Origin: a virus | Virus record (IMG/VR): IMGVR_UViG_3300020401_000021 | Coordinates: 1 to 57,072 of that record | DNA length: 57,072 bases | Reading direction: 5' to 3' (one strand) | Shown: in pieces, positions 14,377-55,646 of the stretch | How the letters are laid out: each line of letters begins with the position of its first letter | Position numbering within the stretch: the first letter of the stretch is position 1 | Made by a program: the position numbers and the translations under genes | The notes under the pieces: model-generated | The model's database searches: none | What the model was told of the DNA's origin: nothing | Seen by the model: only the letters and a program-made list of their open reading frames with translations

Positions 14377-15099
14377 TTAAGCAATATCTTTGTATTCGAT
14401 TAAAGTGTCGTCCCTATGGTCAGCACCTTTACCATCCTCGCTAAATCTTTCCATGTAACTTACTTCAGTCTTTAAACGGGCATTGCATGAAAAAATAATG
14501 CGCTCTTTATCGTCTTCATGGGCGTTAGTGTAATGAGGAACAAAAGAAGGAAATACAATCATCATTCCTTTACACGGGCCAACGTATACACTTTCAGAAT
14601 ACAAACCAAACCCAGCTTCGTGGTTCATAGCAAACAAAGGGTACATTGGGTTTTTAAAAATTATTTCGCCAGTACCTTCACTTGCATCACCATAAAAAAC
14701 ACAACTGAGATTTGCGTTTGGATGGATGTGTTCGGGAACATAATGCCCACGACCATAAATAGTACACCAAGAATTACCTATGTCGAAAGTAACAGGGTTG
14801 CGAGCAAACATATTTAAATATTTGCCAATCTGCTTTACAGCAGCGTCGTGCATAAAATTAAAACGTTCGTCAGATACTAAGTTTTGTTTCGCAAAAGAAG
14901 TGTACCCATACTTTTCGTATTCACTTTTATCTTTTGCTAACTTCGATCTTGACCAAGCTTCTGAAACTAAACCGCCATGATCGTCAGCATCACGAAGCTC
15001 TCTGGAAAGACTAGAAAACTTATCAGCAATCTCTTCCCCGTTTTCTATTTCTTCTGCAAGAATAGGTACTCCAAAAGAGTTTATTACAGGATCAAACAT
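14377..15099 (-). CDS. Putative 2OG-Fe(II) oxygenase, about 240 aa
   Basis: The C-terminal half follows the 2OG-FeII_Oxy_5 pattern: WCTIYGRGHYVPEHIHPNA with the HIH metal site, LSCVFYGDAS, GEIIFKNP, then GMMIVFPSFVPHYTN supplying the distal His, and ERIIFSCN supplying the Arg that would hold 2-oxoglutarate. Such enzymes use iron, oxygen and 2-oxoglutarate to hydroxylate a substrate, often protein or nucleic acid. I favour the ATG at 15099, close behind GGAG with only an 8-base overlap; an ATG at 15153 would add 18 residues. It lies among structural genes, so a virion or host protein could be the substrate; that is inference. Confidence 0.7.
   Translation of the reverse strand: MFDPVINSFGVPILAEEIENGEEIADKFSSLSRELRDADDHGGLVSEAWSRSKLAKDKSEYEKYGYTSFAKQNLVSDERFNFMHDAAVKQIGKYLNMFARNPVTFDIGNSWCTIYGRGHYVPEHIHPNANLSCVFYGDASEGTGEIIFKNPMYPLFAMNHEAGFGLYSESVYVGPCKGMMIVFPSFVPHYTNAHEDDKERIIFSCNARLKTEVSYMERFSEDGKGADHRDDTLIEYKDIA
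14405..14417 (-). promoter_or_regulatory. Late-block motif CATAGGGACGACA (copy 4)
   Basis: It lies inside the last codons of the oxygenase gene (encoding HRDD), 45 bases before the GTG start at 14362. Confidence 0.45.
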
Positions 15100-15331
15100 T
15101 GCTCCAATCAACCCCCAACGCTTTTTGGATTTTATCGTTGATTGTATCAACATCTTCCAATGCTAGCGTATATCCACCTGCTGGATTTAACATTATCTTT
15201 GTTATCCACTCAGGTTGAGTTTTCGGTGCGTCGGGTGGCATGGGTGTTCTGTCTGTCATTGTGCAAACAAAATTTTCAACGTTTGCGTAACCTTTTTTTC
15301 CGTTAGGGTCAGTGTAACTAATTACTTTCAT
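15092..15331 (-). CDS. Uncharacterised late protein, 79 aa
   Basis: A short acidic protein, beginning MKVISYTDPNGKKGYANVEN, with a Pro-rich middle (TPMPPDAPKTQPEW). It overlaps the oxygenase start by 8 bases and follows the tail-assembly-chaperone-like gene by 8 bases, so it is in the same transcript. No family recognised. Confidence 0.55.
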   Translation of the reverse strand: MKVISYTDPNGKKGYANVENFVCTMTDRTPMPPDAPKTQPEWITKIMLNPAGGYTLALEDVDTINDKIQKALGVDWSNV

Positions 15332-26013: not shown

Positions 26014-26048
26014 GGGGATAGGGGGTTAGCCCCCCTATCCCCTTTTTT
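26014..26048 (+). terminator. Very strong hairpin with T run, upstream of terS
   Basis: GGGGATAGGGGG pairs perfectly with CCCCCTATCCCC (12 bp, five-base loop) and is followed by six T on the + strand. In form it is a rightward terminator, yet nothing rightward is encoded before it. It may stop antisense transcription or be part of the packaging signal. Confidence 0.7.
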
Positions 26049-28905: not shown

Positions 28906-28920
28906 CTGTTTACAACCAAC

Positions 28921-28942
28921 GTTGTATTATATACAATACAAC
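28921..28942. repeat. Perfect 8-bp inverted repeat before the CobS-like gene
   Basis: GTTGTATT-ATATAC-AATACAAC, in the only sizeable gap of this operon, 25 bases before the ATPase start. Its centre is A+T-rich and -10-like. An operator or internal promoter is plausible. Confidence 0.55.
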
Positions 28943-28967: not shown

Positions 28968-30779
28968 ATGGAAAACTTGAAACTAGGAACTGTGCTGCAA
29001 GCGGCACGAAACAAGACCGAGAAGATGAAAGACTTGAAAGACCTTCTCGTAAGCAGTGCAACCCACCAGTTTACCCAAGCTGGTATCTACACTGACCCAA
29101 TGTTGACGGACGAACAGGTTAGTTCGTCACTCATGGTACACCTTGAGAATAATAAATCAAACGCTGTTCATGGTGTAAGCAGTTCTAGGAAGATGGACAA
29201 TACCAAGCCATCACAAATCTTTCGAGCAATGTCGTTGTACTCGTTGGCTATCTTGCTGACTGACATCAAAGAGCATGGCTTTAACTCAGCCATAACGATA
29301 TTGAAGGAAGCACTATGTACTGCTGTTAGCGGTCTGCCTCTTGAGTTTCACGGTGAGACTGTAGAGTTCGGCAAACAGGTAACAACATGGCCGTACACTA
29401 AGGGTCGCATAGCACAAATGACTAACACTTGGTCGTTTCTTGTGAACGACAAAGACTTGGACGGACTGTGCAAGTCGATGGATCATGTCGAGATTGACGA
29501 CGTGCCACCATTGTTGGATGGTCAACAGCAGAAATTGCATCCATCGTTCAACAAAACGCCAGCATCAAACAGCATGACTGCTTTGAACTATCTACTAGCT
29601 GACGTTAGCCAAGGCGTGTTCAAGGACTACAACGATATGCTTGGCAAGATTGAAGAAGCCGAGGACGTTGCAAGTAAAGCGTTGGACAAGATCGGTGAGC
29701 TTAACAAAGAGCTAAAGATTGCAAAGGCTGCACCAAAGGCTGCTCCATCTGTCATTAAATCGGATGGTGAAATACCCAATGGGACGCCGTACACTGCTAA
29801 CGCTCAAGATGTTTTCGGTATCCAAGACACAAGGCTAGACCGTGAAATCACCTGTTGGAAATGGGATGCTGCTAATCCAAAAGTTCCAGAGGTGTTGCAT
29901 CACTATCATTTTGACATTGATACATTGTCTGACTTCTTATGGTCGATGGAAAACTGCAAGAACAGTTGGTTCAAAGGTCACACTGGTACAGGCAAGACAA
30001 CCTTTGTTCAGCAAGTCTGTGCAAGGATTGGCAAGATGTGCTTTCGTCTAAGCTGTGACGTTAACATAGAAAGCTATCATGTTATCGGCAGCAAGGACAT
30101 CCGTGTTGAGGACGGCAAATCAATCTCAACGTTTACTGAGGGTGTGCTTCCGCAAGCTATGCAACTCCCTGCGCAATTTATCATTGACGAAGCTGACGCT
30201 CTCCGAGGTGATGTATCTTACCTCTTTCAGCCAGTGTTGGAACGTCAGCCGTTGCGTATCAACGAGGATGGTGGCCGTCTAGTTTACCCTGATCCACACT
30301 TCAACGTTGCCGCAACTGCAAACTCTGGTGGTCAAGGCGACGACACTGGCTTGTATGCAGCAGCAGTCAAGATGGCTTCAGCAGCGCAGATCAACCGTTA
30401 CCACGCCTTCTTTGAGATTGATTACATGGATGCTGACGTAGAGGTTAACATGATCCGTCAGATAGTGCCAACGCTATCCGAGACATCAGCGCAAAACCTT
30501 GAGACGTTTCTTCGTGATTACCGTAAAGGTTTTCTCGAAGGCACTATCGCATTGCCTATCTCTCCACGTAATTCACAAACCCTAGCTGAATACTGTGCTG
30601 AGTTTGCGCCAAAGGTTGGTGAAGGTACTGCGTTCAGAAGGGCTGTGTTGATTAACATTACCAAACGTGCTGCTGACATGGACGCAGCTAAGATCAACGA
30701 ATTGGTGGAGCGTATTACAAAAGGCGAAACCAGTGACAATGAAGTTACCCAAGACCTTAACGAAGAGCAGCCGTTCTAA
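28968..30779 (+). CDS. CobS/MoxR-type AAA+ ATPase, 603 aa
   Basis: ATG at 28968 behind AGAGAGGACAAATA. Residues 1 to about 250 form a helical domain with no match known to me, then a coiled coil (DVASKALDKIGELNKELKIA). The AAA+ core starts at about 300: Walker A GHTGTGKT near 336-343, Walker B FIIDEAD near 405, VAATANS sensor region and NRYHAFFEIDYMD, the CobS/MoxR order. CobS is the ATPase partner of CobT in aerobic cobaltochelatase; MoxR relatives work with VWA proteins as metal-insertion or remodelling chaperones. The CobT-like gene follows after one small gene, so the two likely act together. The long N-terminal extension is unlike bacterial CobS. Confidence 0.82.
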   Translation: MENLKLGTVLQAARNKTEKMKDLKDLLVSSATHQFTQAGIYTDPMLTDEQVSSSLMVHLENNKSNAVHGVSSSRKMDNTKPSQIFRAMSLYSLAILLTDIKEHGFNSAITILKEALCTAVSGLPLEFHGETVEFGKQVTTWPYTKGRIAQMTNTWSFLVNDKDLDGLCKSMDHVEIDDVPPLLDGQQQKLHPSFNKTPASNSMTALNYLLADVSQGVFKDYNDMLGKIEEAEDVASKALDKIGELNKELKIAKAAPKAAPSVIKSDGEIPNGTPYTANAQDVFGIQDTRLDREITCWKWDAANPKVPEVLHHYHFDIDTLSDFLWSMENCKNSWFKGHTGTGKTTFVQQVCARIGKMCFRLSCDVNIESYHVIGSKDIRVEDGKSISTFTEGVLPQAMQLPAQFIIDEADALRGDVSYLFQPVLERQPLRINEDGGRLVYPDPHFNVAATANSGGQGDDTGLYAAAVKMASAAQINRYHAFFEIDYMDADVEVNMIRQIVPTLSETSAQNLETFLRDYRKGFLEGTIALPISPRNSQTLAEYCAEFAPKVGEGTAFRRAVLINITKRAADMDAAKINELVERITKGETSDNEVTQDLNEEQPF

Positions 30780-31060
30780 TGGGTAATCGTAAACAGAAGC
30801 TAGCTCAGATAAGGTTGCGTATTAAGGAGTTGAACACAGCGTATCAACTTCTTTCGCTGCCTATCAAACAGTCGTTGGAGATTAACCGCTACAGCGACAA
30901 CCCAGACGGTACGGCTAAACTTAATCCAAAACCGTACCGCCTGACTAACACCGTAAGTGGAGAAGATTTTGGGCCGTTAACCCCGAATGAGTGTTGGCTC
31001 ATTCTAACGGCTCAACTTCGCCTATTAATCAAACTTAAACAACACAAGGAGAACATATAA
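30779..31060 (+). CDS. Small protein between the ATPase and VWA genes, 93 aa
   Basis: Start overlaps the ATPase stop (TAATG), and its stop overlaps the VWA start, so all three are coupled. Helical N-terminus (QKLAQIRLRIKELNTAYQLL), Pro-rich middle, helical end (LTPNECWLILTAQLRLLIKL). It may be an adaptor of the complex. No family recognised. Confidence 0.6.
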   Translation: MGNRKQKLAQIRLRIKELNTAYQLLSLPIKQSLEINRYSDNPDGTAKLNPKPYRLTNTVSGEDFGPLTPNECWLILTAQLRLLIKLKQHKENI

Positions 31061-33210
31061 TGTTCAAGCTTAATTCGCCTCTGGCACTAAAGACAGGTTT
31101 GGAAGCACTGACAAAAGTTCATGGTGCTAAGCAAATCACTACGTCGTTCGACGGTGATGGTGCAAGTACAAACTACAAGCACATTACCTTGCCACGACTA
31201 CCGTTGTTAGCAGAGCTAACGAAGAAAGACATGATGGTCTTTCGTGGCTATCATGGTCACGAGGTTGGCCACATCTTGTTCACTAACAAGAAGTATTACA
31301 ACCAGTTTGTCGATGATAACTTTAGGGTTGAGAAAGGCCCACACTTTGGTACTCGAACAAGTACTCTCACTACCCCTATCATAGCGACAGATGAAGATTG
31401 CCAACGTGCTGTCCGAAAGCTTAACACCTTTCATCGCATTTGGAATTTTCTGGAAGATCCGTTGATAGAGCGGAAGCTATGCGATAAGTTTGCTGGCCTA
31501 CCGTTGGCGTTGAACGCAGTGTGTGAAGCTGTTGTTGCTGAGAGCAATAAGGCAAGACGTGATGGATTGCGTGATCTGCCTGACTATGACCCAAGAGAGA
31601 CAGCGATGTTCGCTATCAATCTGAACTGCCGTATGTCGTTTGGCGTTGGCGCTGATGAAGTCCAAGAGTACCTCGACAATATTCCCGAGGAAGCAATGCC
31701 GTTGTTCAACAAGTACCACAAACGGTTGCTCAAGCTGAAGCATACAAGCGCTGCTTGCAAACTGGCGTTGTCCATCTTCTACGATTTCTGGGTTGAAGAA
31801 GATTTCGATGCGCCACCACGAAACGAAACACCCGATGAAGGGGAAGGAGATGAAAATGAAACTGAACAGACGTCAAATCAGGATGGAGATGGAGATGACG
31901 GAGCAAGCGTTGGATCAGACGGAGAAGATGAAGAACAGCAATCGCCTGACAGCGGAGGTGGCGACACCAGAGATGACGACGGAGATAAAGAGCGTGATAG
32001 CCAAGAAGAAGAAGCGTCTACGTCGCAAGAAGAAAAGCCAGAAGAACAACAGGGCGTTGGCAAGCCGAATACAGGTGAGCAAGGTAACGACAATGAGGAA
32101 AAGCTAAACCTCAAACCGTTCAAATCTGTTGAAGCTGGTGATGCTGCTGACGTTGTCAACAAGATCGCTGACTTGCACCAAGAGTACACAAACGAGCCAG
32201 AGATTACTGACGACGAAGGGTGGAAGCAGACACTTAGATACAACCCACACCCTGTCTATGACCACAACAACTCTGACTTTCAGTACGGCAATCTTACTAA
32301 GGCGATGGTTCTTTCAAGGAACGGTAGCACAGGTGATGTCAAAAAGATGGACGAAAATAATCAGCCTATCTACAACAATGTTACGAACGACCATGAAAGA
32401 GAGCCGTATGAAGAAGCTCATAGCCGCCTTGAAAATACTTGGTTGAAAAATCTTAATCAAGCTGACCGACAAGCAATCACTTCACTAGCAAGACGGTTGC
32501 AAGCTAGAGAAAAGATACTAACGGAACGTGGCAAGAAGCGTGGTCGCTTGGATAGCTCACGTTTGTATGGCGTTGTCGCTGGCGATCACAACGTTTTCTA
32601 CACTCGAAGTCATACCCAGGCATACAGTACTGCTGTTGCTGTCTATGCTGACGCTAGTGGTTCGGTGCGGAATGTTCGGATGTCGAACGCTTTGGCTGCA
32701 CTGAACGAGGCGTTGGGCATGGGCAATATCCCAACAGAGATTGCTACATGGAAATGTGGTTATCCTGTTCACTTCCATGGCCACAGCACAGGTAGCAGGG
32801 ATGGCTGTCAAATCTTGCGGATCAAACAGTTCAACGACAACTACAAGCATGTTCGTGGTGACTTGTTGATGCAGCGTCAATTGATCTTTGGTGGCACGTT
32901 TGCCGTCGAAGCTTATTGGCGTGGTGTTCAGTCACTGTTGGAACGCAACGAGGAACGCAAGGTTATGTTTTTCTTGATGGACGGTTCTGCTGCTGGTGAT
33001 CTTGACGGTAACTTCCCCGAACCAGCAATGCGGTTTAGTCAACAGATGGCTGCGCATCTTGGTGTTGAGACTATTGGTATTGGCGTTGGCTTCGAGATGA
33101 ATAGGTACATCAAAGGGTCAATCTTCACCAACTTCAACGACCTTGCGGCTGATATGTTGCAAGCTGTTAGCAAATACTTTGACGAACAAGGTAGCTATGA
33201 AGCTGCCTAA
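31060..33210 (+). CDS. CobT-like VWA protein with HEXXH zincin motif, 716 aa
   Basis: Residues 67-71 are HEVGH within GYHGHEVGHILFTN, followed by FLEDPLIERK at 130-139. An HEXXH plus a downstream Glu is the gluzincin metallopeptidase pattern. Residues about 245-350 are an extremely acidic linker (GEGDENETEQ, GSDGEDEEQQ), as in CobT. The C-terminus is a VWA domain with a MIDAS motif DASGS near 530 and FFLMDGSAAGDLD near 645. The CobS-like ATPase lies two genes upstream. CobT is the VWA subunit of cobaltochelatase, but the peptidase-like motif points equally to a protein-remodelling or cleaving complex. Motifs are clear; activity is unproven. Confidence 0.78.
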   Translation: MFKLNSPLALKTGLEALTKVHGAKQITTSFDGDGASTNYKHITLPRLPLLAELTKKDMMVFRGYHGHEVGHILFTNKKYYNQFVDDNFRVEKGPHFGTRTSTLTTPIIATDEDCQRAVRKLNTFHRIWNFLEDPLIERKLCDKFAGLPLALNAVCEAVVAESNKARRDGLRDLPDYDPRETAMFAINLNCRMSFGVGADEVQEYLDNIPEEAMPLFNKYHKRLLKLKHTSAACKLALSIFYDFWVEEDFDAPPRNETPDEGEGDENETEQTSNQDGDGDDGASVGSDGEDEEQQSPDSGGGDTRDDDGDKERDSQEEEASTSQEEKPEEQQGVGKPNTGEQGNDNEEKLNLKPFKSVEAGDAADVVNKIADLHQEYTNEPEITDDEGWKQTLRYNPHPVYDHNNSDFQYGNLTKAMVLSRNGSTGDVKKMDENNQPIYNNVTNDHEREPYEEAHSRLENTWLKNLNQADRQAITSLARRLQAREKILTERGKKRGRLDSSRLYGVVAGDHNVFYTRSHTQAYSTAVAVYADASGSVRNVRMSNALAALNEALGMGNIPTEIATWKCGYPVHFHGHSTGSRDGCQILRIKQFNDNYKHVRGDLLMQRQLIFGGTFAVEAYWRGVQSLLERNEERKVMFFLMDGSAAGDLDGNFPEPAMRFSQQMAAHLGVETIGIGVGFEMNRYIKGSIFTNFNDLAADMLQAVSKYFDEQGSYEAA

Positions 33211-33418
33211 CTGGACGACAGCTAAGAAAAAGCCACCTACAGTGAAAGCAGAATGGTTGCTGATGTACGATCAGCGACCACCACTTTTCTGGTGGCGCGT
33301 TGCTTGTGTGGTTAGGCACAATCGCATCCGACACAAGGATAGAGAAAAGATCAGGGCAGCCTGTGCCTTGGTCGATCACCATTACCCTCTGAAATCAGAA
33401 TATATAGGAGCAGTTTAA
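33197..33418 (+). CDS. Small basic protein, 73 aa
   Basis: ATG at 33197, within the end of the VWA gene behind AAGG. Basic, Trp-rich protein (MKLPNWTTAKKKPPTVKAEW, PPLFWWRVACVVRHNRIRHK). Its stop overlaps the SleB-like start as TAATG. Function unknown. Confidence 0.55.
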   Translation: MKLPNWTTAKKKPPTVKAEWLLMYDQRPPLFWWRVACVVRHNRIRHKDREKIRAACALVDHHYPLKSEYIGAV

Positions 33419-33807
33419 TGATAGAAGCAGTACTATGCTTGGCGTTGAACGTGTATTTTGAAGCACGATCAGAGCCAATCAACTCTCAGTTCGCAGTTGC
33501 AGAAGTAACTATGAACCGAGTTAAGTCTGACGCTTACCCAGATACAGTTTGTGAAGTTGTCTGGCAACGTAAGCAATTTTCATGGACGCATGACGGTAAG
33601 AGCGACAAACCCAAAGTTGGACACGCTTGGCGTGTAGCGTTGGCGGTAGCCAAGTCTACGCTTAGCGACACTAAGGGGTACACTAGCCAGTTGCCGCCTA
33701 ACACATTCCACTATCATGCCGATTATGTTAGCCCATATTGGGTTAGCCAATACAAAAAGGTTGGCACGATTGGTAGGCATATTTTCTACAGGAAGGAGAC
33801 AAGCTGA
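33418..33807 (+). CDS. SleB-like cell wall hydrolase, 129 aa
   Basis: The segment ALNVYFEARSEPINSQFAVA with the catalytic-type Glu, then VAEVTMNRV, PDTVCEVVW, QFSWT and the C-terminal TFHYHADYVSPYW follow the Hydrolase_2 (SleB) lytic-transglycosylase pattern. No signal peptide is seen, so export would need a holin or virion packaging. It lies in the rightward operon rather than with the amidase, so it might act at entry or be a virion enzyme. Family assignment is good; role is inferred. Confidence 0.8.
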   Translation: MIEAVLCLALNVYFEARSEPINSQFAVAEVTMNRVKSDAYPDTVCEVVWQRKQFSWTHDGKSDKPKVGHAWRVALAVAKSTLSDTKGYTSQLPPNTFHYHADYVSPYWVSQYKKVGTIGRHIFYRKETS

Positions 33808-45308: not shown

Positions 45309-45520
45309 TTAATAACCCTTCGCATTATACTCAAGGCAAGGTTGAATGTACGGAAGCTATACGCTCGGCAGTAGGAGACGAAGGTTACGAAGCATTTTTG
45401 CGTGGTAACATTATCAAATACATATGGCGCTACCCTCACAAGAATGGACTTGAGGATTTAAAGAAAGCGCAAACATACATAAATATGCTGATTGATCTAA
45501 AGTCTAATAATCAATCTTAG
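45290..45520 (+). CDS. DUF3310 protein, 76 aa
   Basis: NNPSHYTQGKVECTEAIRSA, FLRGNIIKYIWRYPHKNGLE and LKKAQTYINML are the standard DUF3310 sequence, common in phage replication or nucleotide modules and sometimes called nucleotide kinase-like. Biochemical role not settled. It overlaps the previous gene by 19 bases and the convergent giant gene by 17. Confidence 0.85.
   Translation: MDKEDIINNPSHYTQGKVECTEAIRSAVGDEGYEAFLRGNIIKYIWRYPHKNGLEDLKKAQTYINMLIDLKSNNQS
45490..45516. repeat. Inverted repeat at the convergent gene ends
   Basis: GATTGAT and ATCAATC, 13 bases apart, at the shared 3' ends of DUF3310 and the giant gene. Possible weak bidirectional terminator; no T run. Confidence 0.35.
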
Positions 45521-48500
45521 AGTTTATCCTTGAGCTAATACCGCTACCACTTTTCTTTTTTCTTCCAGACGGCTCACCAGCAACAGCATCAACAAAGTCT
45601 TCTCGTAGTGCTGGCATAGACCCAATAGGTGGAGCAAACCTGTGGAATAACGTATCGACCATTTCTCGTTCTTTGTAGTTGGATGATGTTCCACCAAGAC
45701 TGTCGCTAATAATATCACTAATGCCAGAACCAACGGTAAGGCCATCGTTAAACAATCCCATTGACGGCCCAAGTATTACTTCACCAATTCTTACCTGACC
45801 AAATGCGCCGTTGTCTACGTTTGATCCAATGTCATATAACATTTCACCGATCAAACCCATGCCACCCATGACGACAAAGCCATCCCAATACCAACCTAGG
45901 TACTTAGCAGTGTCTTCATCCATGTCTTCAGCCCACGCAAACTGTTCGGCAAGTGAACGCTCTCTAAATTTAAACTCTCGGTTGTCTTCACCGCCACGGC
46001 CTTGAACAATATCTTTGATATTTGCAGCAGCAAAACCCATAGCTGGCGCTGCGGTATACATATACATTAACGGTGCAATGTCAGCATCCCTTGGGTTATC
46101 AAGAAACCTATTCCACGCTCTTCGATGTAAACGCCACATCATCATTGGGAATGATTTAAGTTGATACACAATCTTACCAACTGGCGTTTGACCCCAAACA
46201 GGATTATCAGAAGGGTTGGGCGTAAAGATTGCTTCGTTTGTAAACCTGTTTAACGCTGTAGCAACTTGGAAATACTCTTCGCTATGGTTGTCCATTACGC
46301 TTTCTAATTCTGGCGCATTGTTTTGATAGAAGTCTTGCAATCCGTAAGCATCCATCTGTCGTTTACCTATACGACCTTTGCGAGTGTTAGGCTCGTTAAT
46401 CGCCTGACGCTGCATCATCCGTAAATGTTCATAACCAATAGCTGACGCTAGGTTGCGCCACATTTCTGTCCAAGGTGTAAGAAGTGTTGCATTAAAGTAA
46501 CCATTGGTAAACTTGGTACTGTCAACACCAAAGGCTTGGGTCATGTATTTGTAAGTTATGTTCTCGGTAGCAGCCCCAATATTGCGCACCATTTCACGAT
46601 AATCTTCGTCAGTAGCATAATTTTTAATGCCCCTAACCCAAGCTTGGAAGTTGCCAGATTGTACTAACGGCAACATACTATCGCCCATTGACGTTAGTGT
46701 AGTAAACGGTAGCAATGTTACAGCGTTAAATCCTGTCAGCCACTTCTGAGTTGTCTCGGCCATTGAAGAGTATGCTGTTTCATCATTGATTGGTCTGCGC
46801 CTAACAGCGTTCAAGAAACCTCTGGCATGTAACTGGTTTTTTCTATGGACAGGCGACAACCCACCATTAGCCGTATGAAGACCATCAGCAATTGCTTCTG
46901 CTCTTAGCTTGAAGTTTCTTTGCTTTAGAAGCTCCATACGTCTTTCTTCTGGTGATAGTTCCGCAAGTTCGTTTTCTGAGCGTCGGTATATGCGGTTCAT
47001 ATACTCTGCCATCTCATGTTTCATCATTCCGCTTTGAGCCATCCTTACAAGCTCTCTAGCGTGATACTCTGCTCTGCCCTCTGCCAATAAGCTTGGTGGT
47101 GCTTCCATGTATGTAAAGTCAAACTTGTTTTCAACTATATCTTGGTCGGCTGGGTTGCGTACAAAACGTAGTTTAGATGAAACCTTTTTACCTTTTAGCA
47201 ACGAAGCAAGCGCATCAATACTTGATGGATTACTGTTCAACGCTATGAAGTAATCGTCAATAGCGTGATGTCCAGCGCCAAAGTTCTTAAACAAATCTAT
47301 ATCACGTTCCGCTGCATCAGCGTACTTACTAACTACAACCATAACGTCGTTTTCTAAATAATCAGAAAGATTGTTTGGGTTGCTTGGATCTATAAACTCT
47401 TGAAACAAATCAAGACGGATCATTCTTTGAAACGCATGATCTGAGTTGTTGTTGTCAGAAGGTGTACGCCTGATATTATTATCTGGCATACGTTGTACCC
47501 CATCATCAGCAACTAACTGATCTGCCATAGCTTTGGCTTTAAACTCAGCTTGTGCTTGTGTCATTGGGTTTTGTCGTCTTGGCCCTCTTGGTCTAACGCT
47601 ATCTTCTTTTAGAAAGTATAATGCTAAACGGCGCTCGAACTCTGCACGATCAGCTTCGATAATGTCTTTTCGGTAAACTTGTGGCACATAGTTGTTTTCG
47701 ATTTTACCAACGTTCATACCTTCACGACGCATACGTTGCATTGTCTGATCGAAGTAACCACGCACCATATCGTATATTTCTTTTTCAGCATCGCTAGTTA
47801 AGATATTACGATCTCCACGCCGCAAAGCTCCAATGATACGAAGGTGTGATGGTGGTTGAGAGGATCTATTAGACGGCACAAACCCAAGTGCATCCCCTGC
47901 TGCTTCGTACATTTGCACTGCACCATCTTTAAACCAGCGTGATACTAGGTTGCCGCCATCAGGTAGTGCGTTTAGCTTTTTAAGAAGTGGCGTACAAATT
48001 TTTGACACTGCTACCGCATGACGTTCATAGTGACCACCACCACCTTTAAGTGGGTTGAACACTTTAGATAAGAAAGTCATTCCTGAGTTTGCTAAAATTT
48101 CTGGGTTGTTGCGTGTTGTCCAGAATGTTGCGGCTTGTCGCATATTCTGTGCATCTGCTTCTGTTGCGTTTCTTCCTCGACGCAATCTATCTAACGTATC
48201 AACAAACGCTGGTGACACACCAACGCTTTCTAATGCGCTAAAGATAGAGCGACGCATGTTTTCACCGCCCTGATCGCCTAACGTTGCAGCTTCAATCCAA
48301 GTTGTGTTTGCGCTGGATGCGTTTGCATCTATGCCAACAGTGTGGTTTAAATCTGTTTCTGCAAAAGCATAGTCTCTAATGTAACGCATGTCAGACGAAT
48401 TAATTAAAGTCTTAACGCCGTTTACTTCGTAGCTAGTAAACTCAAGCTGCTTCATAATTCTGTTTAGCTTTTGTTGTGATCCAGCCATAGCAACAAGAGC

Positions 48501-51500
48501 GTTATAAACGTTGTTACCTCTGGGCAAATCTAAACTTTCAAGTTCACTTATTATATTACCGATAGCTTCTGCGTTTTGTCCTTCACTATCTCTCAATATT
48601 GCTGACGTTAGCTCTGTAAATACAGGATGGTTTGTTGTCACTTTGTTGTCGAACGTCGCTGGTTTTGTATCACGAACAAATACTGGCGTTGTTTCGATGT
48701 CAGCGTCTACACCGTAGAGAGTTTTAAGTTCGTCTCGCAAAGTTTTTTCATACTCAAACAAAAAGTTAGCATGACTTTTTACTGCTGGACTATCATCTGG
48801 CGAAAATTGAACGCGAGCTATTTCATCTGATGTTAAAGATATTTCATCTAATAAATCACTGACTTGCTCGCGCACCATTGGGTCGCTGTAGTTTTCTAAT
48901 AATCTATCTTTGTAGTTAGTAATAGTATTTGACGGCAATCTTCTAAGTTTAACACCAGAAGACAAGCCACCTAACTTACTGACGGCAGCATAATAAACTG
49001 TTGGATTGTCAGATTGTGTAAAGCGACGGGCTGCTGCTAGCTGTGTGTTTGACATATTTTCTATTACATCATCAACGTAAGCAGTAGCGTGTTCGGATGG
49101 GACTACCTCAGTAAAATGAACAGTGGGCGACCCCTTTTGTACTGTCACATCGGGAGCAATATATTCGCCTTGCGTCGGTATCAAAGGAAAGCGTTTTCTT
49201 GCAGATGGCTGTGCAATCAAACCTTTTGTTACTACACCAATTGCAGGGATTAAGTTTTGACGTACATCATTGATAGCATCTTCTAAATGAAAACGATCTT
49301 CACCAGACAGTTGTTCCATTAAATTCTTAACTGTAGTTGGTTTAGTTTGCATGTCTGTATCTTCAACGACAATGCGAGCCACCAAGTCTTTTGGTTCTAA
49401 ATCAAATTTAACTGCTAGCTTTTCAAGTAACTCTACACTTGTTGGGTCAATAATATTATCGTTAAACAAATACCCAGATAGTGTTGAGACGGGGCTAGTT
49501 ATGTCGTCAGACTTTTCTAACGTTGCTGCTTCTCTACGCATTATCTTTCTGAAGTCGTCATACTCTGGACTACGTGGATTGTATGGCAAGTCAGCGCCCA
49601 TATAAGCAAGCATACTTGACATTGTACGCAACACATATTCTGTTCGAGCTTTACGGTGAGACAGTGGTTCAAGCCATGACCTTAACGAGTACGGCGCTTT
49701 CGGAGGAACGCCATTACTTGTTGCTTCACCTTGGTTAAAATATTCTTTAGCTTCTTGAGCTTTAATAATAGCGTTATTAACTTCTGGGGGCGCATATTTC
49801 TTTCCTGTCTTTTTGTTTTTTCGTTTTTGCAGTTCATAGATAACCAAGTTTACATGGTCGTCGTTACCTTCGGCTTTCGCTTTCCAAGCAATGTCCATTA
49901 GTTCCATATAACTTGCGCCGTCTTTAAATATTCTAGCAGCAGTCGTTACTTCTACAGGCATTTCTTGGTGGCTTAAATCGACAGCGTGTTGAGCAACCTG
50001 TGTTCGCAATCTGGTTTGACCAAAGCGATGCCAGTTTGCTAGCAGTGTGTCTAAATCCATCTTGTTAAAATCAGGCAACGGTTCGTTTGCTTTAAGGGCG
50101 TTGTCTGCTGACTTGCGCATAGCTTCGTTTGCTACTGCTTTAATGTCTTTTGTAACTTTTACATGCTTGACTTGTCTTGCGTTGTTGATTGCTCTCATGC
50201 GGCTAACGCTATGTGCTTTACGTCCAGAAGACCCAACAGGCATATTTCGTCTGAAGCGTAACTCGGCTGGCATGTACTCAGGAATGTCACCGCCTGTTAC
50301 ATTTTTATATGCCATGTTAAGTGACGACAATATATTTTTATTAAAGCTTTCTAAAGTTGGGTCAGTGGGAGAAACATCTGATCCTTCTACAAGTGCAACC
50401 TTTTTGCCTGTCCATATATTTAAAGCGTTTTCAATTGCGCCCTCTTCTAAAGAACCAAGCACCATATTGTCGGCTGTTCTGGTATCTTCTACTCGAAGAG
50501 CATCACTAATGTTTTTTGCGTATCGCTTCATAACAATAGCGTAGCTTTTGATTGGGCTAAACACTCCTGGGTATGTATCATCAAACGGTACGCCTTTAAC
50601 AACTTTGCCATCTGATCTTCGTACTGAAGTTTTTTGTGCTGCTATCTTGGCGTCTTTTGTGTTGAACGCCATGCTTCGGTACAACGTTGCTAATTTGTGC
50701 AAAGAAAGTGCAGCCTCTTCTACATTGCCGCTAGCCATGTGAGCGTTTATTTCGTCTGCCGTTACCTTAACGTCATTGTACCTTACCCGTATTGATTTAC
50801 TAAAATCATTGGTTGGCTCAACAGGGTTTAGATGCGCAACCATAACTGCGTTGTCTTTGTCTGCAATTAGTCTTTCAAACAACGGTGTTAAATTGCTGTC
50901 TTCGTAAGCAGGGTTAGTAAGCTTTGTCCACAATGCTTTTGCATAGTTTTGGATTTTATCCCAAAGCGTCCAATTTTTTGGAGTAACCAAAGCATCATGG
51001 TGGTTCATCATGTACGCTACAAACTGATTAGCAAAGTATTCTTGTGGGCTAGTCTTGCTTACAATACCAGCTTCACCCACGTTAGGCAGTCTTATACCGT
51101 CTGAGTTCCTTAAAAAATTACCATCAGCATCGTACTCTGGCTTGCCGATAACAGGAAAAGCTTTTGGGTTTATTTTGCCGTTTTCATAATACTTAGATAG
51201 CTCTTGCCAAAACGCTAGCCTGTCATCCATTGTCATCATGTTTTTGTAAACCCAATGACCAACTTCGTGTAAGACTAGGTGTGTTGGTGTTACGCCTGTA
51301 TTTTTTACAGCGCCAGTATTTATTCGTATTGTATTTTGACCACTACGCCTACTTGGGCTAGCGCTTTGGAAGCCACTATTATTAACATTGTCTTCAACAA
51401 AACGTGGAGCAACGCCAGTGGGCAACACTATTTTAAGGACACGGGCTATTTCAGTTCGTGTTGCTGGTGATGCTTTTGTAAAAATACCTGTTGCTTGCTT

Positions 51501-54500
51501 AATACTTTCGTTAAGCGTAGTTGTATTTTGTCTAATTCCTTTATTAGCAACGCCCGTCAAAACTTTATAAGCATGACGCAAGTGTTCGACCCGTCGTTCA
51601 TAAGGAATGTTTACTGTTTGCACACCGCTTGATGTAGTAAACGAAACAGTTGCGTCCCAATCTCCATTCTCGCTTCGGTCAACCATACTATCTAATTCTT
51701 GTATGGAAATGTTAGCTTTGGAAAATTCTTTTAAACTTTTAAAGCGTGGGTTCTTTTCCATGCTTTGCAAAGTAAATAAAGAACGCACAATCTCTTCGCC
51801 GTCTGGTTCTGTTTGTAAGATGCTAGCCATGCTAACGCCAGTGTTTGCCGCTTGGCTTTGTGGCATTGGCATTGGTGGCGGTGTGTATGCTTCCTTAACA
51901 GGTTCGCCTGTAACTTCTGCCGTCTTTTGTTGTACTGGTGTTGGCTCTTTTTTATCAACCGCAACCATAGCTTGTTTAACTTTATATGGGTTAGACATAT
52001 CTCTGCGTCTAAAGTTTGCTGGTAGATAAGCTAAGTCCCAATCATCTGGTGAAGTCTTTGACCCAATAACGTCGTAAATTGTGTCTCCGTTTGCAATTTG
52101 ATTATCGCTTATCATCCTTGCGCTGTAAGTTGCTTGCTCTCCATTAACGGTAAACTTAAAGTTCGGGTCTTTCGGTATGGCTGCTAAGTTTAGTTTGTTA
52201 CCGTTGGCATCTGTAATTGTTGGCGGCATATCTTCTGCAACCGTGCCAACTGGATCGTCAAATAGTTGCTCACCCTTAATATTAACAACAGTCTTTTCGG
52301 GTTTTGGTGCTTCGACAGGTTTGTTTGCTGCATCAAGCTCAGCAATCTTTTGCAGATATTCGTTTTGCAAGTTGTCAAACTGATCCATGTCAGCCAAAGC
52401 TTTCGTTGCAAACTCTTCTTTTAGGCGTCTCTTTTCGCGCTCAAGGTCGGAAATGCTTAACGGTTGCTTTGACTGTTTCGGTACAGGTGCAACTGCAACT
52501 TGGCCTTGCACCATGTCTAAGGCATCTTCCTCAGTTATAAGGTGCAACTTAACTAAGCTTTCTACATTCCTGTAAACTAGATTTGTTCTCGGTGCGTAAT
52601 AAGCAACTTTATCTCTTCTTGTTAGGCGTGGGCCATCTGCAACAGGTTCATTACCTTGTGGTTTAAATTCATAAAATGTTGGTGGTGTGTCGCTTGCGTT
52701 AATAGACAAAGGATCGAAGTTACCTTTTTCGTCACTTGCCCGACGCATATACATTCTTTGGTCGCGCTCTGCTTCTAACTTAACAGCTTCTAAATTTAGA
52801 TTGCGCGTTTTTACTTTTGCTTTACGCAAGAACGCTTGTGTTTTTGCTTCTATTCTGCGTTCGCCACTAGATGTCACAACTTCTCGCGCAGATTTACCAG
52901 CGTATATATCCACGTTTTCCGTCGCTCGACCCATAGTTCCAGCAAGGCGTCTGCTTCTTTTAGCCAAAGCCTCTTTAGTAACAGTGTCTTGTATTTTTTC
53001 TTTTGCTTGATCTAAAAGCTTTTGTCGTTGTGCGCTAGTCAAGTCCTTTAAGTTTACGCCTTTAAGAGTAATATCTCGGCTTAACTTATCACTTGCGCTT
53101 TTAACACGTCTGTTTGTTTCACGCATTACAGCAAGCACTTCGTCTTGCGTAAGGTCTTCTATTTCGGGTAAATTTTTAAAAGCTTCTTTTTCAGCTTGTT
53201 TTTTGCGCCAGTTAATTACTTGCTGCTCTAAATTGTCAGCCATTTTTGTTTGCATATCTGGCGTAATTATTTCGCCTTTTACTCTGTCTGGTTTATTAAA
53301 CCTGTCTGGCGTAAATTCTTTTAGAATATCTTGTTGTTCTGATATGCGGTCTTGAATTTCTTTTGTTGCTCTAGCATCAAAGCTAGTCATGCCAGTTGCA
53401 ACACTAGCTTTTGTTTTTTCTATTTCTTTTTTAAGACGGTTCTTTTCATTTTGTTTTTCTGTTTTTTTGATTTGCGCTCGCAAAGATTTTATTTGATTGT
53501 CAGATGCAGCTTTAAGTTCTTTCTCGTAAGCAGTACGGTTTTTACCCATATCAGCTTGAAGGCTATCTATTTCTTTTTGCAGTGCATCATGGCGAGCAAA
53601 CAGTTCGTCAGCTTTATCGCCTGTGTAAACTTTTCTAGCGTCTTCAATAGATGTCACGCCTTTTTGCTGCTTTGGCGCTTCTACTTGTGAGCGAACGCCA
53701 CCCATTTTTTCTAACTGTTTGTCAGTTGGGCGACCTGTTCTTGCTTCAGCAGAGTAATCAGCAACATCAAAGTTAAATTCTTCAACGGCAAGGTCGTGTA
53801 CTTCTTGACTAATCTCTCCATTTTCAAGGGCCGCTTTTGCTTTGCGTATTCTAAGCATTTTTATCTGGTCGGGCGTAAGCTCTAAGTTAGAAAGAGTTTC
53901 TGGGTCAACAAGTTCATTAACTTCGTCAATAAAGTCCATAAGTTGTTTATCAACGTTAGGGTCAAACGCTAAATCAGTTACTGCTTCTACGGCAAGAGCG
54001 TCCTCTTCTGGAACGGCTGCTGCTGTAGCTGGGCCTGGGGTTTCTGACGTTGCTTCTGGCGTTGGTTTTTCATCGCTCTTAGTTACCGTTGGATTTTTCT
54101 CAACGTAATCAGTTAACGCATCAACGGATCTTTTTGTAAAATTACCTTTGCTAGTCACAGGAATTGTGCCGTCTTCAACTAACGACTTGATGTCAACGCG
54201 AGTAATTAAATTTTGATTTATTAAGTTCTCAACTGCTTCACGAAACTTTTTACCATTAGCCGCTACAGGTATTTCGTAATCAATATCAGTAACAAGCGGT
54301 TCAACATCTGCTGGCTCTTCGGGTGCTTTAATTCCGCTTAACTCTTGATTAAGGTTTCTAATTTGTTGCTGTTTAGCTTCGATGTCTGCAATGCTAGCTT
54401 TGCTTGGATCGCTAGCTTCTGCCATAAGATTTTCTAATTCTTCTTCAGCTTTTAATATCTCAGAAAACTTTGCATCTGCTGCTGCAACTTGTTTGTTAAT

Positions 54501-55646
54501 TTCTGCAAGCTCTGCGTCTATTGCTTCTAAGTCGTCTTTAATTCTTTGAAGCTCATAACGCTTTGCGCCAGACATACCTTCTGCCGAACCTTCTTCAAAG
54601 ATAGCTCTATATTCTTTTAGTATTTGCTCACGTTCGGCTTGTAAGTTTCTTTTCTCTAAATCTAAATCAGTAAGCTCTCTGCTTTTAGCGGCCCAAGGAC
54701 GTACACCAGCTTCGCCAGTAATACCGATAGCACTTGGCCCAGCCACACTTCTGTTTGGTGGTGGTGTAACTGATGGGTCGCTTTCGTTTTCACCACCGCG
54801 TTCAGCACGTTTACGAGCAGCACGGGCCTCTGGTGTGTTATCTGCCAGCAGTAATCTTTCATCGCTTTCAAGCTGTAGTTGATCTGGCGTTACATCAGGC
54901 ATTTCTGTTGGAGTAACTAATGCTTGTTCTTCTGGCGTTAAATCTTTGCTAGTTGTGTAACGTGCAGCAGCACCACCCAGCAATCGTCCAGCACCATAAC
55001 CAGCAGTACCACCTAATGCAGTAGCTGCCGCTGTTCTTACAGGATTAAAGTCGTCAGTAATACCTTGTTGGATTTCGGTAGCCTGTGCGCCAATGTCAAA
55101 GCCGCCTTCGATAGCAGCGTTTATCTTAGCTTCAGAAATAGCACCACGTTTTGTACCTTCACGAACACCCAAAGCAGCAGCTTCTGTAGGGTTAACGCCT
55201 TTAGAAAGCGCCGCAAGTCTTGTTGCTTGTGCAACTTTCCCTGCTGATACTGTGGGTATAATGTTAACTGGATCAAGTATAGCACCAGTACCGTAGTCAA
55301 TTGCTTTATCTAAAAATCCACCACGCGATGGAGCATTTCGCCATGCGTGACTTAAACGTGCCATACGCTCTCTGTCGCTGCCGCCCATAGCGTACTCGGC
55401 TGCACCGCCTAATAAGCTGACAGAGTTTACGTCTCGCCACCTTCGATCAGAATAAAACGTGTCCAGCATTTCTTTGTTATTGCTAAACATTTCTCCTTGA
55501 TCGCGGTAGTAAGTGCGAACATCATTTAAGAAATTTCGGTTGTTTAAAAGTTCTGCACCCGAAAACCCAGAGTAGTCTGTGTTTGAGGTTGCGGATTGGC
55601 GTTGCGCTCTAAGCGCCTCGCGGCGACGTTGTAATTCAGATGCCAT
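45504..55646 (-). CDS. Giant internal virion-type protein with zincin motif, 3380 aa
   Basis: This single gene is 18% of the genome. N-terminal 300 residues: globular with hydrophobic Ala/Gly stretch (AAATALGGTAGYGAGRLLGG). About 310-470 and 680-960: long coiled coils. About 1460-1464: HEVGH within THLVLHEVGHWVYKN, a zinc metallopeptidase signature. The C-terminal 700 residues include hydrophobic-helical TGFNAVTLLPFTTLTSMGDS and YTAAPAMGFAAANIKDIVQG segments that could insert in membranes. Order after gp14- and gp15-like genes suggests a gp16-type ejection protein, but it is far longer than T7 gp16 (about 1318) and shows no lysozyme-like motif. It resembles phage polyvalent proteins in building several domains into one chain. 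Confidence 0.8.
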   Translation of the reverse strand: MASELQRRREALRAQRQSATSNTDYSGFSGAELLNNRNFLNDVRTYYRDQGEMFSNNKEMLDTFYSDRRWRDVNSVSLLGGAAEYAMGGSDRERMARLSHAWRNAPSRGGFLDKAIDYGTGAILDPVNIIPTVSAGKVAQATRLAALSKGVNPTEAAALGVREGTKRGAISEAKINAAIEGGFDIGAQATEIQQGITDDFNPVRTAAATALGGTAGYGAGRLLGGAAARYTTSKDLTPEEQALVTPTEMPDVTPDQLQLESDERLLLADNTPEARAARKRAERGGENESDPSVTPPPNRSVAGPSAIGITGEAGVRPWAAKSRELTDLDLEKRNLQAEREQILKEYRAIFEEGSAEGMSGAKRYELQRIKDDLEAIDAELAEINKQVAAADAKFSEILKAEEELENLMAEASDPSKASIADIEAKQQQIRNLNQELSGIKAPEEPADVEPLVTDIDYEIPVAANGKKFREAVENLINQNLITRVDIKSLVEDGTIPVTSKGNFTKRSVDALTDYVEKNPTVTKSDEKPTPEATSETPGPATAAAVPEEDALAVEAVTDLAFDPNVDKQLMDFIDEVNELVDPETLSNLELTPDQIKMLRIRKAKAALENGEISQEVHDLAVEEFNFDVADYSAEARTGRPTDKQLEKMGGVRSQVEAPKQQKGVTSIEDARKVYTGDKADELFARHDALQKEIDSLQADMGKNRTAYEKELKAASDNQIKSLRAQIKKTEKQNEKNRLKKEIEKTKASVATGMTSFDARATKEIQDRISEQQDILKEFTPDRFNKPDRVKGEIITPDMQTKMADNLEQQVINWRKKQAEKEAFKNLPEIEDLTQDEVLAVMRETNRRVKSASDKLSRDITLKGVNLKDLTSAQRQKLLDQAKEKIQDTVTKEALAKRSRRLAGTMGRATENVDIYAGKSAREVVTSSGERRIEAKTQAFLRKAKVKTRNLNLEAVKLEAERDQRMYMRRASDEKGNFDPLSINASDTPPTFYEFKPQGNEPVADGPRLTRRDKVAYYAPRTNLVYRNVESLVKLHLITEEDALDMVQGQVAVAPVPKQSKQPLSISDLEREKRRLKEEFATKALADMDQFDNLQNEYLQKIAELDAANKPVEAPKPEKTVVNIKGEQLFDDPVGTVAEDMPPTITDANGNKLNLAAIPKDPNFKFTVNGEQATYSARMISDNQIANGDTIYDVIGSKTSPDDWDLAYLPANFRRRDMSNPYKVKQAMVAVDKKEPTPVQQKTAEVTGEPVKEAYTPPPMPMPQSQAANTGVSMASILQTEPDGEEIVRSLFTLQSMEKNPRFKSLKEFSKANISIQELDSMVDRSENGDWDATVSFTTSSGVQTVNIPYERRVEHLRHAYKVLTGVANKGIRQNTTTLNESIKQATGIFTKASPATRTEIARVLKIVLPTGVAPRFVEDNVNNSGFQSASPSRRSGQNTIRINTGAVKNTGVTPTHLVLHEVGHWVYKNMMTMDDRLAFWQELSKYYENGKINPKAFPVIGKPEYDADGNFLRNSDGIRLPNVGEAGIVSKTSPQEYFANQFVAYMMNHHDALVTPKNWTLWDKIQNYAKALWTKLTNPAYEDSNLTPLFERLIADKDNAVMVAHLNPVEPTNDFSKSIRVRYNDVKVTADEINAHMASGNVEEAALSLHKLATLYRSMAFNTKDAKIAAQKTSVRRSDGKVVKGVPFDDTYPGVFSPIKSYAIVMKRYAKNISDALRVEDTRTADNMVLGSLEEGAIENALNIWTGKKVALVEGSDVSPTDPTLESFNKNILSSLNMAYKNVTGGDIPEYMPAELRFRRNMPVGSSGRKAHSVSRMRAINNARQVKHVKVTKDIKAVANEAMRKSADNALKANEPLPDFNKMDLDTLLANWHRFGQTRLRTQVAQHAVDLSHQEMPVEVTTAARIFKDGASYMELMDIAWKAKAEGNDDHVNLVIYELQKRKNKKTGKKYAPPEVNNAIIKAQEAKEYFNQGEATSNGVPPKAPYSLRSWLEPLSHRKARTEYVLRTMSSMLAYMGADLPYNPRSPEYDDFRKIMRREAATLEKSDDITSPVSTLSGYLFNDNIIDPTSVELLEKLAVKFDLEPKDLVARIVVEDTDMQTKPTTVKNLMEQLSGEDRFHLEDAINDVRQNLIPAIGVVTKGLIAQPSARKRFPLIPTQGEYIAPDVTVQKGSPTVHFTEVVPSEHATAYVDDVIENMSNTQLAAARRFTQSDNPTVYYAAVSKLGGLSSGVKLRRLPSNTITNYKDRLLENYSDPMVREQVSDLLDEISLTSDEIARVQFSPDDSPAVKSHANFLFEYEKTLRDELKTLYGVDADIETTPVFVRDTKPATFDNKVTTNHPVFTELTSAILRDSEGQNAEAIGNIISELESLDLPRGNNVYNALVAMAGSQQKLNRIMKQLEFTSYEVNGVKTLINSSDMRYIRDYAFAETDLNHTVGIDANASSANTTWIEAATLGDQGGENMRRSIFSALESVGVSPAFVDTLDRLRRGRNATEADAQNMRQAATFWTTRNNPEILANSGMTFLSKVFNPLKGGGGHYERHAVAVSKICTPLLKKLNALPDGGNLVSRWFKDGAVQMYEAAGDALGFVPSNRSSQPPSHLRIIGALRRGDRNILTSDAEKEIYDMVRGYFDQTMQRMRREGMNVGKIENNYVPQVYRKDIIEADRAEFERRLALYFLKEDSVRPRGPRRQNPMTQAQAEFKAKAMADQLVADDGVQRMPDNNIRRTPSDNNNSDHAFQRMIRLDLFQEFIDPSNPNNLSDYLENDVMVVVSKYADAAERDIDLFKNFGAGHHAIDDYFIALNSNPSSIDALASLLKGKKVSSKLRFVRNPADQDIVENKFDFTYMEAPPSLLAEGRAEYHARELVRMAQSGMMKHEMAEYMNRIYRRSENELAELSPEERRMELLKQRNFKLRAEAIADGLHTANGGLSPVHRKNQLHARGFLNAVRRRPINDETAYSSMAETTQKWLTGFNAVTLLPFTTLTSMGDSMLPLVQSGNFQAWVRGIKNYATDEDYREMVRNIGAATENITYKYMTQAFGVDSTKFTNGYFNATLLTPWTEMWRNLASAIGYEHLRMMQRQAINEPNTRKGRIGKRQMDAYGLQDFYQNNAPELESVMDNHSEEYFQVATALNRFTNEAIFTPNPSDNPVWGQTPVGKIVYQLKSFPMMMWRLHRRAWNRFLDNPRDADIAPLMYMYTAAPAMGFAAANIKDIVQGRGGEDNREFKFRERSLAEQFAWAEDMDEDTAKYLGWYWDGFVVMGGMGLIGEMLYDIGSNVDNGAFGQVRIGEVILGPSMGLFNDGLTVGSGISDIISDSLGGTSSNYKEREMVDTLFHRFAPPIGSMPALREDFVDAVAGEPSGRKKKSGSGISSRINSKIDY

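Follow-up and report, generated by a model that had tools for sequence, protein, structure and literature searches.

The 57,072-base IMG/VR virus genome stretch IMGVR_UViG_3300020401_000021 (the window, meaning the whole stretch that we analyzed) carries on its plus strand an operon of three genes, which encode a CobS-like AAA+ ATPase, a 93-residue protein and a CobT-like protein with a VWA domain (Table 1). The minus strand carries the structural block, with its terminase, portal and head genes; further along, the window also encodes a tyrosine integrase, a prim-pol/helicase and a Cas4-like exonuclease. A sequence-only reading of the locus had described the three genes as joined by one-base overlaps and had picked out HEVGH, a metal-ion-dependent adhesion site (MIDAS) and an acidic linker in the VWA protein. 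We find all of these in the sequence, and the junctions between the ATPase and the 93-residue gene and between the latter and the VWA gene each overlap by exactly one base. We place the start of the ATPase at the ATG at 28968, which follows GAGAGGAC; the longer open reading frame (ORF) listed for this gene begins at an upstream TTG. The stop codon is the TAA at 30777-30779.

Table 1. Features of the plus-strand operon and of its products (residues are numbered within each protein)
Feature	Position	Strand	Basis
CobS-like / MoxR-class AAA+ ATPase, 603 residues	28968..30779	+	AAA_5 match, CobS structure match, TIGR01650
Walker A GHTGTGKT, residues 337-344	29976..29999	+	translation/alignment
Walker B FIIDE, residues 404-408	30177..30191	+	translation/alignment
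93-residue linker gene	30779..31060	+	ORF
CobT-like VWA protein, 716 residues	31060..33210	+	ORF, profile matches
N-terminal peptidase-like domain, residues 1-257	31060..31830	+	homology to the CobT N-domain; presence of HExxH
HEVGH, residues 67-71, predicted metal site and general base	31258..31272	+	
NFLEDPLIE, residues 129-137; E132/D133 candidate third metal ligand	31444..31470	+	
Acidic low-complexity linker, approximately residues 250-350	31807..32109	+	
MIDAS DASGS of VWA domain, residues 531-535	32650..32664	+	

The ATPase consists of an N-terminal extension of about 260 residues and an AAA+ core (about 268-562); it matches AAA_5 with an E value of 4.3e-11, and its closest solved structure is CobS (9ujv, E value 2.3e-34), followed by NorQ and CbbQ. 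The C-terminal half of the VWA protein matches CobT, and its MIDAS residues are invariant in the family alignment. With an ATPase bearing Walker A and Walker B adjoining a VWA protein bearing a MIDAS, the two form a MoxR AAA+/VWA pair, as the sequence-only reading had proposed. Both proteins fall below the equivalog cut-offs of the cobaltochelatase subunits, the ATPase scoring 131.3 bits against the 558.55 set for CobS (TIGR01650) and the VWA protein 20.5 bits against the 759 set for CobT (TIGR01651).

The conservation of the HExxH motif was assessed on relatives gathered from named phages, plasmids, viral contigs and bacterial genomes; scanning viral contigs by sequence with the VWA protein as sole query returned no relative, and alignments were needed. 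Because one pattern of our motif-based scan selects for HExxH, we dropped that scan for conservation statistics and used one anchored on the ATPase, which involves no selection for the motif and in which 67 of the 69 distinct neighboring CobT-like partners carry HExxH. Among non-redundant N-domains (<85% identity), the motif occupies the aligned position in 88 of 90, a count that is partly selected for HExxH since this set mixes both scans. H67, E68, H71, E132 and D133 are invariant in all 88 motif-bearing domains, and for E132 and D133 this invariance is free of that selection. Very distant members from Gordonia and Tsukamurella phages have the motif as HEIGH, and a plasmid VWA protein adjoining a DUF3150 gene has it as HELGH. 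The HExxH is a conserved site, kept better than chance; its retention in 88 of 88 domains rules out poor conservation of HEVGH among relatives and bears out the earlier suggestion that it resembles a real metal-peptidase site. Variants of the domain were also seen. An Azospirillum plasmid VWA protein (L018:1534-3678) reads HEAGGH, which exceeds HExxH by one residue, with the downstream segment intact (NIIEDVRIE), and the Pseudomonas phages Nican01 and nickie and Stenotrophomonas phage ANB28 encode CobT-like proteins that lack the histidines and keep the ATPase partner. Two neighboring ORFs, one for the N-domain and one for the VWA domain, replace the single gene at L086:5986-8457 and L112:2014-4553; halovirus HHTV-2 is likewise reported to have a split cobT (PMC8651126).

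Two neighboring residues, E132 and D133, are candidates for a third metal ligand. Of the five lineages that have lost HExxH, four (the chelatase CobTs, Nican01, L160 and L175) have lost D133 with it and the fifth, phage ANB28, has kept this residue, while E132 is retained in most motif-less proteins; ICP2 keeps D133 and has a valine in place of E132. As D133 thus tracks HExxH through evolution better than E132 does, this pattern of co-loss suggests that the third ligand may be the aspartate and not the glutamate.

AlphaFold (AF2) models of the N-domain from the window and from a compact relative reached predicted local distance difference test (pLDDT) scores of 93.2 and 95.3, respectively. The models comprise two strands, a helix carrying HEVGH (55-74) and a long helix (112-143) with the NxxED segment, so that H67 and H71, the histidines of the metal site proposed earlier, lie on one predicted helix. 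This predicted arrangement, with HExxH on a helix and a conserved acidic candidate ligand downstream, is the one expected of a zincin. The top PDB match in a first fold search was the zinc protease Wss1 (E value 0.82, probability 0.72, not significant), and a second search gave weak matches to the M1 aminopeptidases IRAP and ERAP2 (E value >1). In the BFVD viral structures, the significant matches are other phage CobT/VWA proteins, including that of halovirus HVTV-1, and an HHTV-2 protein lies just beyond the significance threshold. The modeled fold is compatible with a zincin and does not prove one. The earlier label of a gluzincin, however, is not supported in that form, given that D133 follows the motif more closely than E132 and that no PDB fold match is significant.

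Comparison with cobaltochelatase CobT was based on 28 chelatase CobTs, all over the TIGR01651 cut-off. Their N-domain is homologous to that of the phage proteins (HHalign probability 97.3, E value 2.6e-11, 204 columns), and the CobT family PF06213 matches 74 of the 78 aligned phage N-domains, although the window's own member, taken alone, has no match. All 28 chelatase CobTs lack both histidines and the glutamate of HExxH as well as D133: the first histidine is replaced by Ala or Ser (26/28), the glutamate mostly by hydrophobic residues, the second histidine by Arg or Lys (27/28) and D133 mostly by Gln, while E132 (28/28) and E137 (27/28) are kept. Since none of the 28 holds the motif, the VWA protein is not simply an ortholog of CobTs with a motif-holding N-terminus, a possibility that the sequence-only reading had raised. 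In a full-length tree rooted on actinophage proteins, the chelatase CobTs form one clade (support 100) within the motif-bearing proteins, with five changes of motif state in total; this tree includes the motif columns, and the direction in which the motif changed depends on the two actinophage proteins used as root. A tree of the VWA domain alone again gives one chelatase clade (support 100), whose nesting is weakly supported. Given this placement of the chelatase CobTs, the simplest reading, though no proof, is that their lineage lost the motif. A Phyllobacterium genome carries the mobile type alongside a true CobT. In the literature that we surveyed, we met no earlier description of either the N-domain homology to chelatase CobT or the motif loss in it.

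We favor, with a probability of roughly 0.6, the interpretation that the pair is no cobaltochelatase but a MoxR/VWA machine of the phage, with a zinc-metallopeptidase-like domain at the N-terminus of its VWA subunit; the homology, the conservation of the motif, its co-loss with D133 and the absence of CobN (below) support it. An ATP-driven protein-processing machine seems likelier than a B12 enzyme because the motif is fully conserved among the relatives in phages and phage-plasmids and lost in the true B12 enzymes. In such a machine, the CobS-like ATPase would assemble as a ring, the VWA subunit would dock onto it via its MIDAS-bearing VWA domain, and ATP-driven motion through the flexible acidic linker could present or remodel a protein substrate for the HExxH domain. 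There, H67 and H71 together with D133 (or E132) would hold the metal, and E68 would serve as the general base that clips the substrate. A tethered peptidase domain driven by an ATPase is conceivable by analogy with NorQD, where the MoxR ring rotates the VWA protein and extends its linker (PMC13036017). Chelatase CobT would then represent a related lineage in which the N-domain, devoid of the motif, was retained as a non-catalytic part.

An alternative proposed in print for archaeal tailed viruses (PMC8651126) is that the pair acts as an auxiliary metabolic CobST, which joins the CobN of the host and raises B12 for the phage, for example for a B12-dependent ribonucleotide reductase, the enzyme commonly invoked to explain B12 genes in phages. 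Both proteins are truly homologous to CobS and CobT, and a ribonucleotide reductase scores over the cut-off in 20 of 48 related records. It does not in the other 28, however, and the window has no CobN, no ribonucleotide reductase and no cobalamin riboswitch, an Rfam scan of the whole record having given no match of any kind (other cobalamin genes were not searched for gene by gene). CobN was found in none of the 48 related records. Of 21 bacterial genomes that encode the motif-bearing type, 12 lack CobN, among them Xenorhabdus, Morganella, Buttiauxella, Kluyvera, Photobacterium and Nitratidesulfovibrio; in these, a chelatase would be left without its partner. Nor was CobN detected in an E. 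coli control genome, although the pair occurs in phages of E. coli, including Cyrano and SSU5-like phages. Given also that both equivalog cut-offs are missed by a wide margin and that an invariant HExxH would have no role in a chelatase, which itself lacks it, we consider the auxiliary metabolic explanation improbable, and the doubt that the sequence-only reading had cast on a chelatase role is upheld by the failed cut-offs and by the absence of CobN from the window and many carriers.

Somewhat less remote, but still unlikely in our estimate, is a MoxR/VWA metallochaperone, in which HExxH would hold Zn, Fe or Co for delivery to a metalloprotein of the phage or the host, similar to iron insertion by NorQD, and no proteolysis would take place. 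MoxR/VWA pairs of known role indeed often serve the maturation of metalloenzymes (PMC13036017, PMC9976466), and the site is conserved and metal-like. Yet E68 shows the same invariance as the two histidines (88/88), which is expected for hydrolysis and not for mere carriage, and in chelatase CobT, the sole relative with a known metal-inserting role, the site is gone. We give as little credence as to the auxiliary metabolic role to a machine for virion assembly and peptidolytic processing, the function that Iyer et al. (2021) proposed in group 2.2 jumbo phages for a MoxR ATPase and its vWA neighbor, which has a metallopeptidase domain at its N-terminus (PMC7824862). In the named relatives, the pair adjoins dnaE, sigma factor, primase, helicase or integrase genes instead of structural genes, related pairs on plasmids stand beside DUF3150 genes, and the structural block of the window is on the opposite strand. 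The replication-type neighbors favor an early role over virion processing.

Several observations weigh against the favored peptidase-like machine. Foldseek returned nothing from the PDB at an E value of 0.001. DUF2201_N (PF13203), a metallopeptidase-like family that likewise has an N-terminal HExxH (HEALHC), had to be rejected as a homologue, as its profile homology to the phage N-domain is confined to the motif, with only 17-21 columns around it aligning (E value 0.005-0.05); PF13203 has no match in the window. Two contigs and two groups of named phages have lost the motif, yet their VWA protein still stands beside an ATPase, and from the persistence of these motif-less pairs it follows that catalysis is dispensable in some lineages. 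Finally, CobN could be supplied by the host of this phage.

Compared with known systems, the pair resembles CobNST, whose AAA+ and VWA subunits, including the N-domain, are homologous to it and which shares the acidic linker, the MIDAS and the adjacency of the two genes. The phage pair differs in the long N-terminal extension of the ATPase, the lack of CobN and the scores below the equivalog cut-offs, and chelatase CobT, unlike the phage VWA protein, has neither HExxH nor D133. The group 2.2 pair (ASV44728/ASV44729; PMC7824862), compared by description, has the same architecture, so that a MoxR/metallopeptidase-vWA pair as such had already been proposed; it was described in jumbo phages only, and the neighbors seen here do not suggest its virion-processing role. 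The CobST of Cobavirinae, CRP-810 and haloviruses (PMC8651126, PMC11288001) belong to the same family, HVTV-1 and HHTV-2 being among our BFVD structure matches. Their published reading is B12 synthesis, and Liu et al. (2021), who regard phage CobST as B12 enzymes, deemed the peptidase annotation of cyanophage cobT a mistake (PMC8651126); our evidence on the family represented in the window points elsewhere and favors the peptidase-like reading over theirs. NorQ/NorD and RavA/ViaA also combine a MoxR ATPase with a VWA partner, but they are distant in sequence, and the literature surveyed describes no HExxH N-domain for them.

It is tempting to speculate, at slightly less than even odds, that all members of the phage and plasmid CobT family are ATP-dependent metalloproteases of mobile elements, with HExxH plus Asp as their site, and that chelatase CobT arose from them by loss of this protease site. 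Phage cobS and cobT are customarily listed among the auxiliary metabolic genes for vitamin B12; were the family an ATP-driven peptidase, such annotations and the ecological claims resting on them would be wrong. Cobaltochelatase CobT would originate as a degenerate protease-like domain, and a subunit of a textbook vitamin enzyme would be a dead protease. The motif-less phages Nican01, nickie and ANB28 offer natural controls. The family also occurs on plasmids: 1013 plasmid records (Klebsiella, Escherichia, Acinetobacter and others) match a Rhizobium-phage CobT-like protein, and many of the matches are annotated as CobT or as porphyrin or cobalamin biosynthesis. In the plasmid records that we opened (L010, L012, L013, L016 and L017), the pair lies close upstream of a gene for the DNA polymerase III alpha subunit.

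As for the 93-residue protein, which the sequence-only reading had treated as a component of the system, its gene was found elsewhere in only one contig (82% identical) and is absent in the next relative; we therefore reject it as a conserved third component and regard it as lineage-specific. Upstream of the ATPase, a promoter-like site (28909-28937) was discarded as no better than chance for the region, and defense-system models gave no match. Directly downstream of the VWA gene, on the same strand, lies a gene for a cell-wall hydrolase (Hydrolase_2, 33418-33807), and an ORF resembling it also follows the pair in L035 and L036. Elsewhere in the window, positions 45504-55646 are taken up by a single ORF of 3380 residues, three 1000-residue pieces of which had no Pfam match, and a 2OG-Fe(II) oxygenase gene (14377-15153) sits inside the structural block. 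The divergent junction between that block and the operon region is marked by a strong terminator-like hairpin and, after it, a T run (26014-26042).

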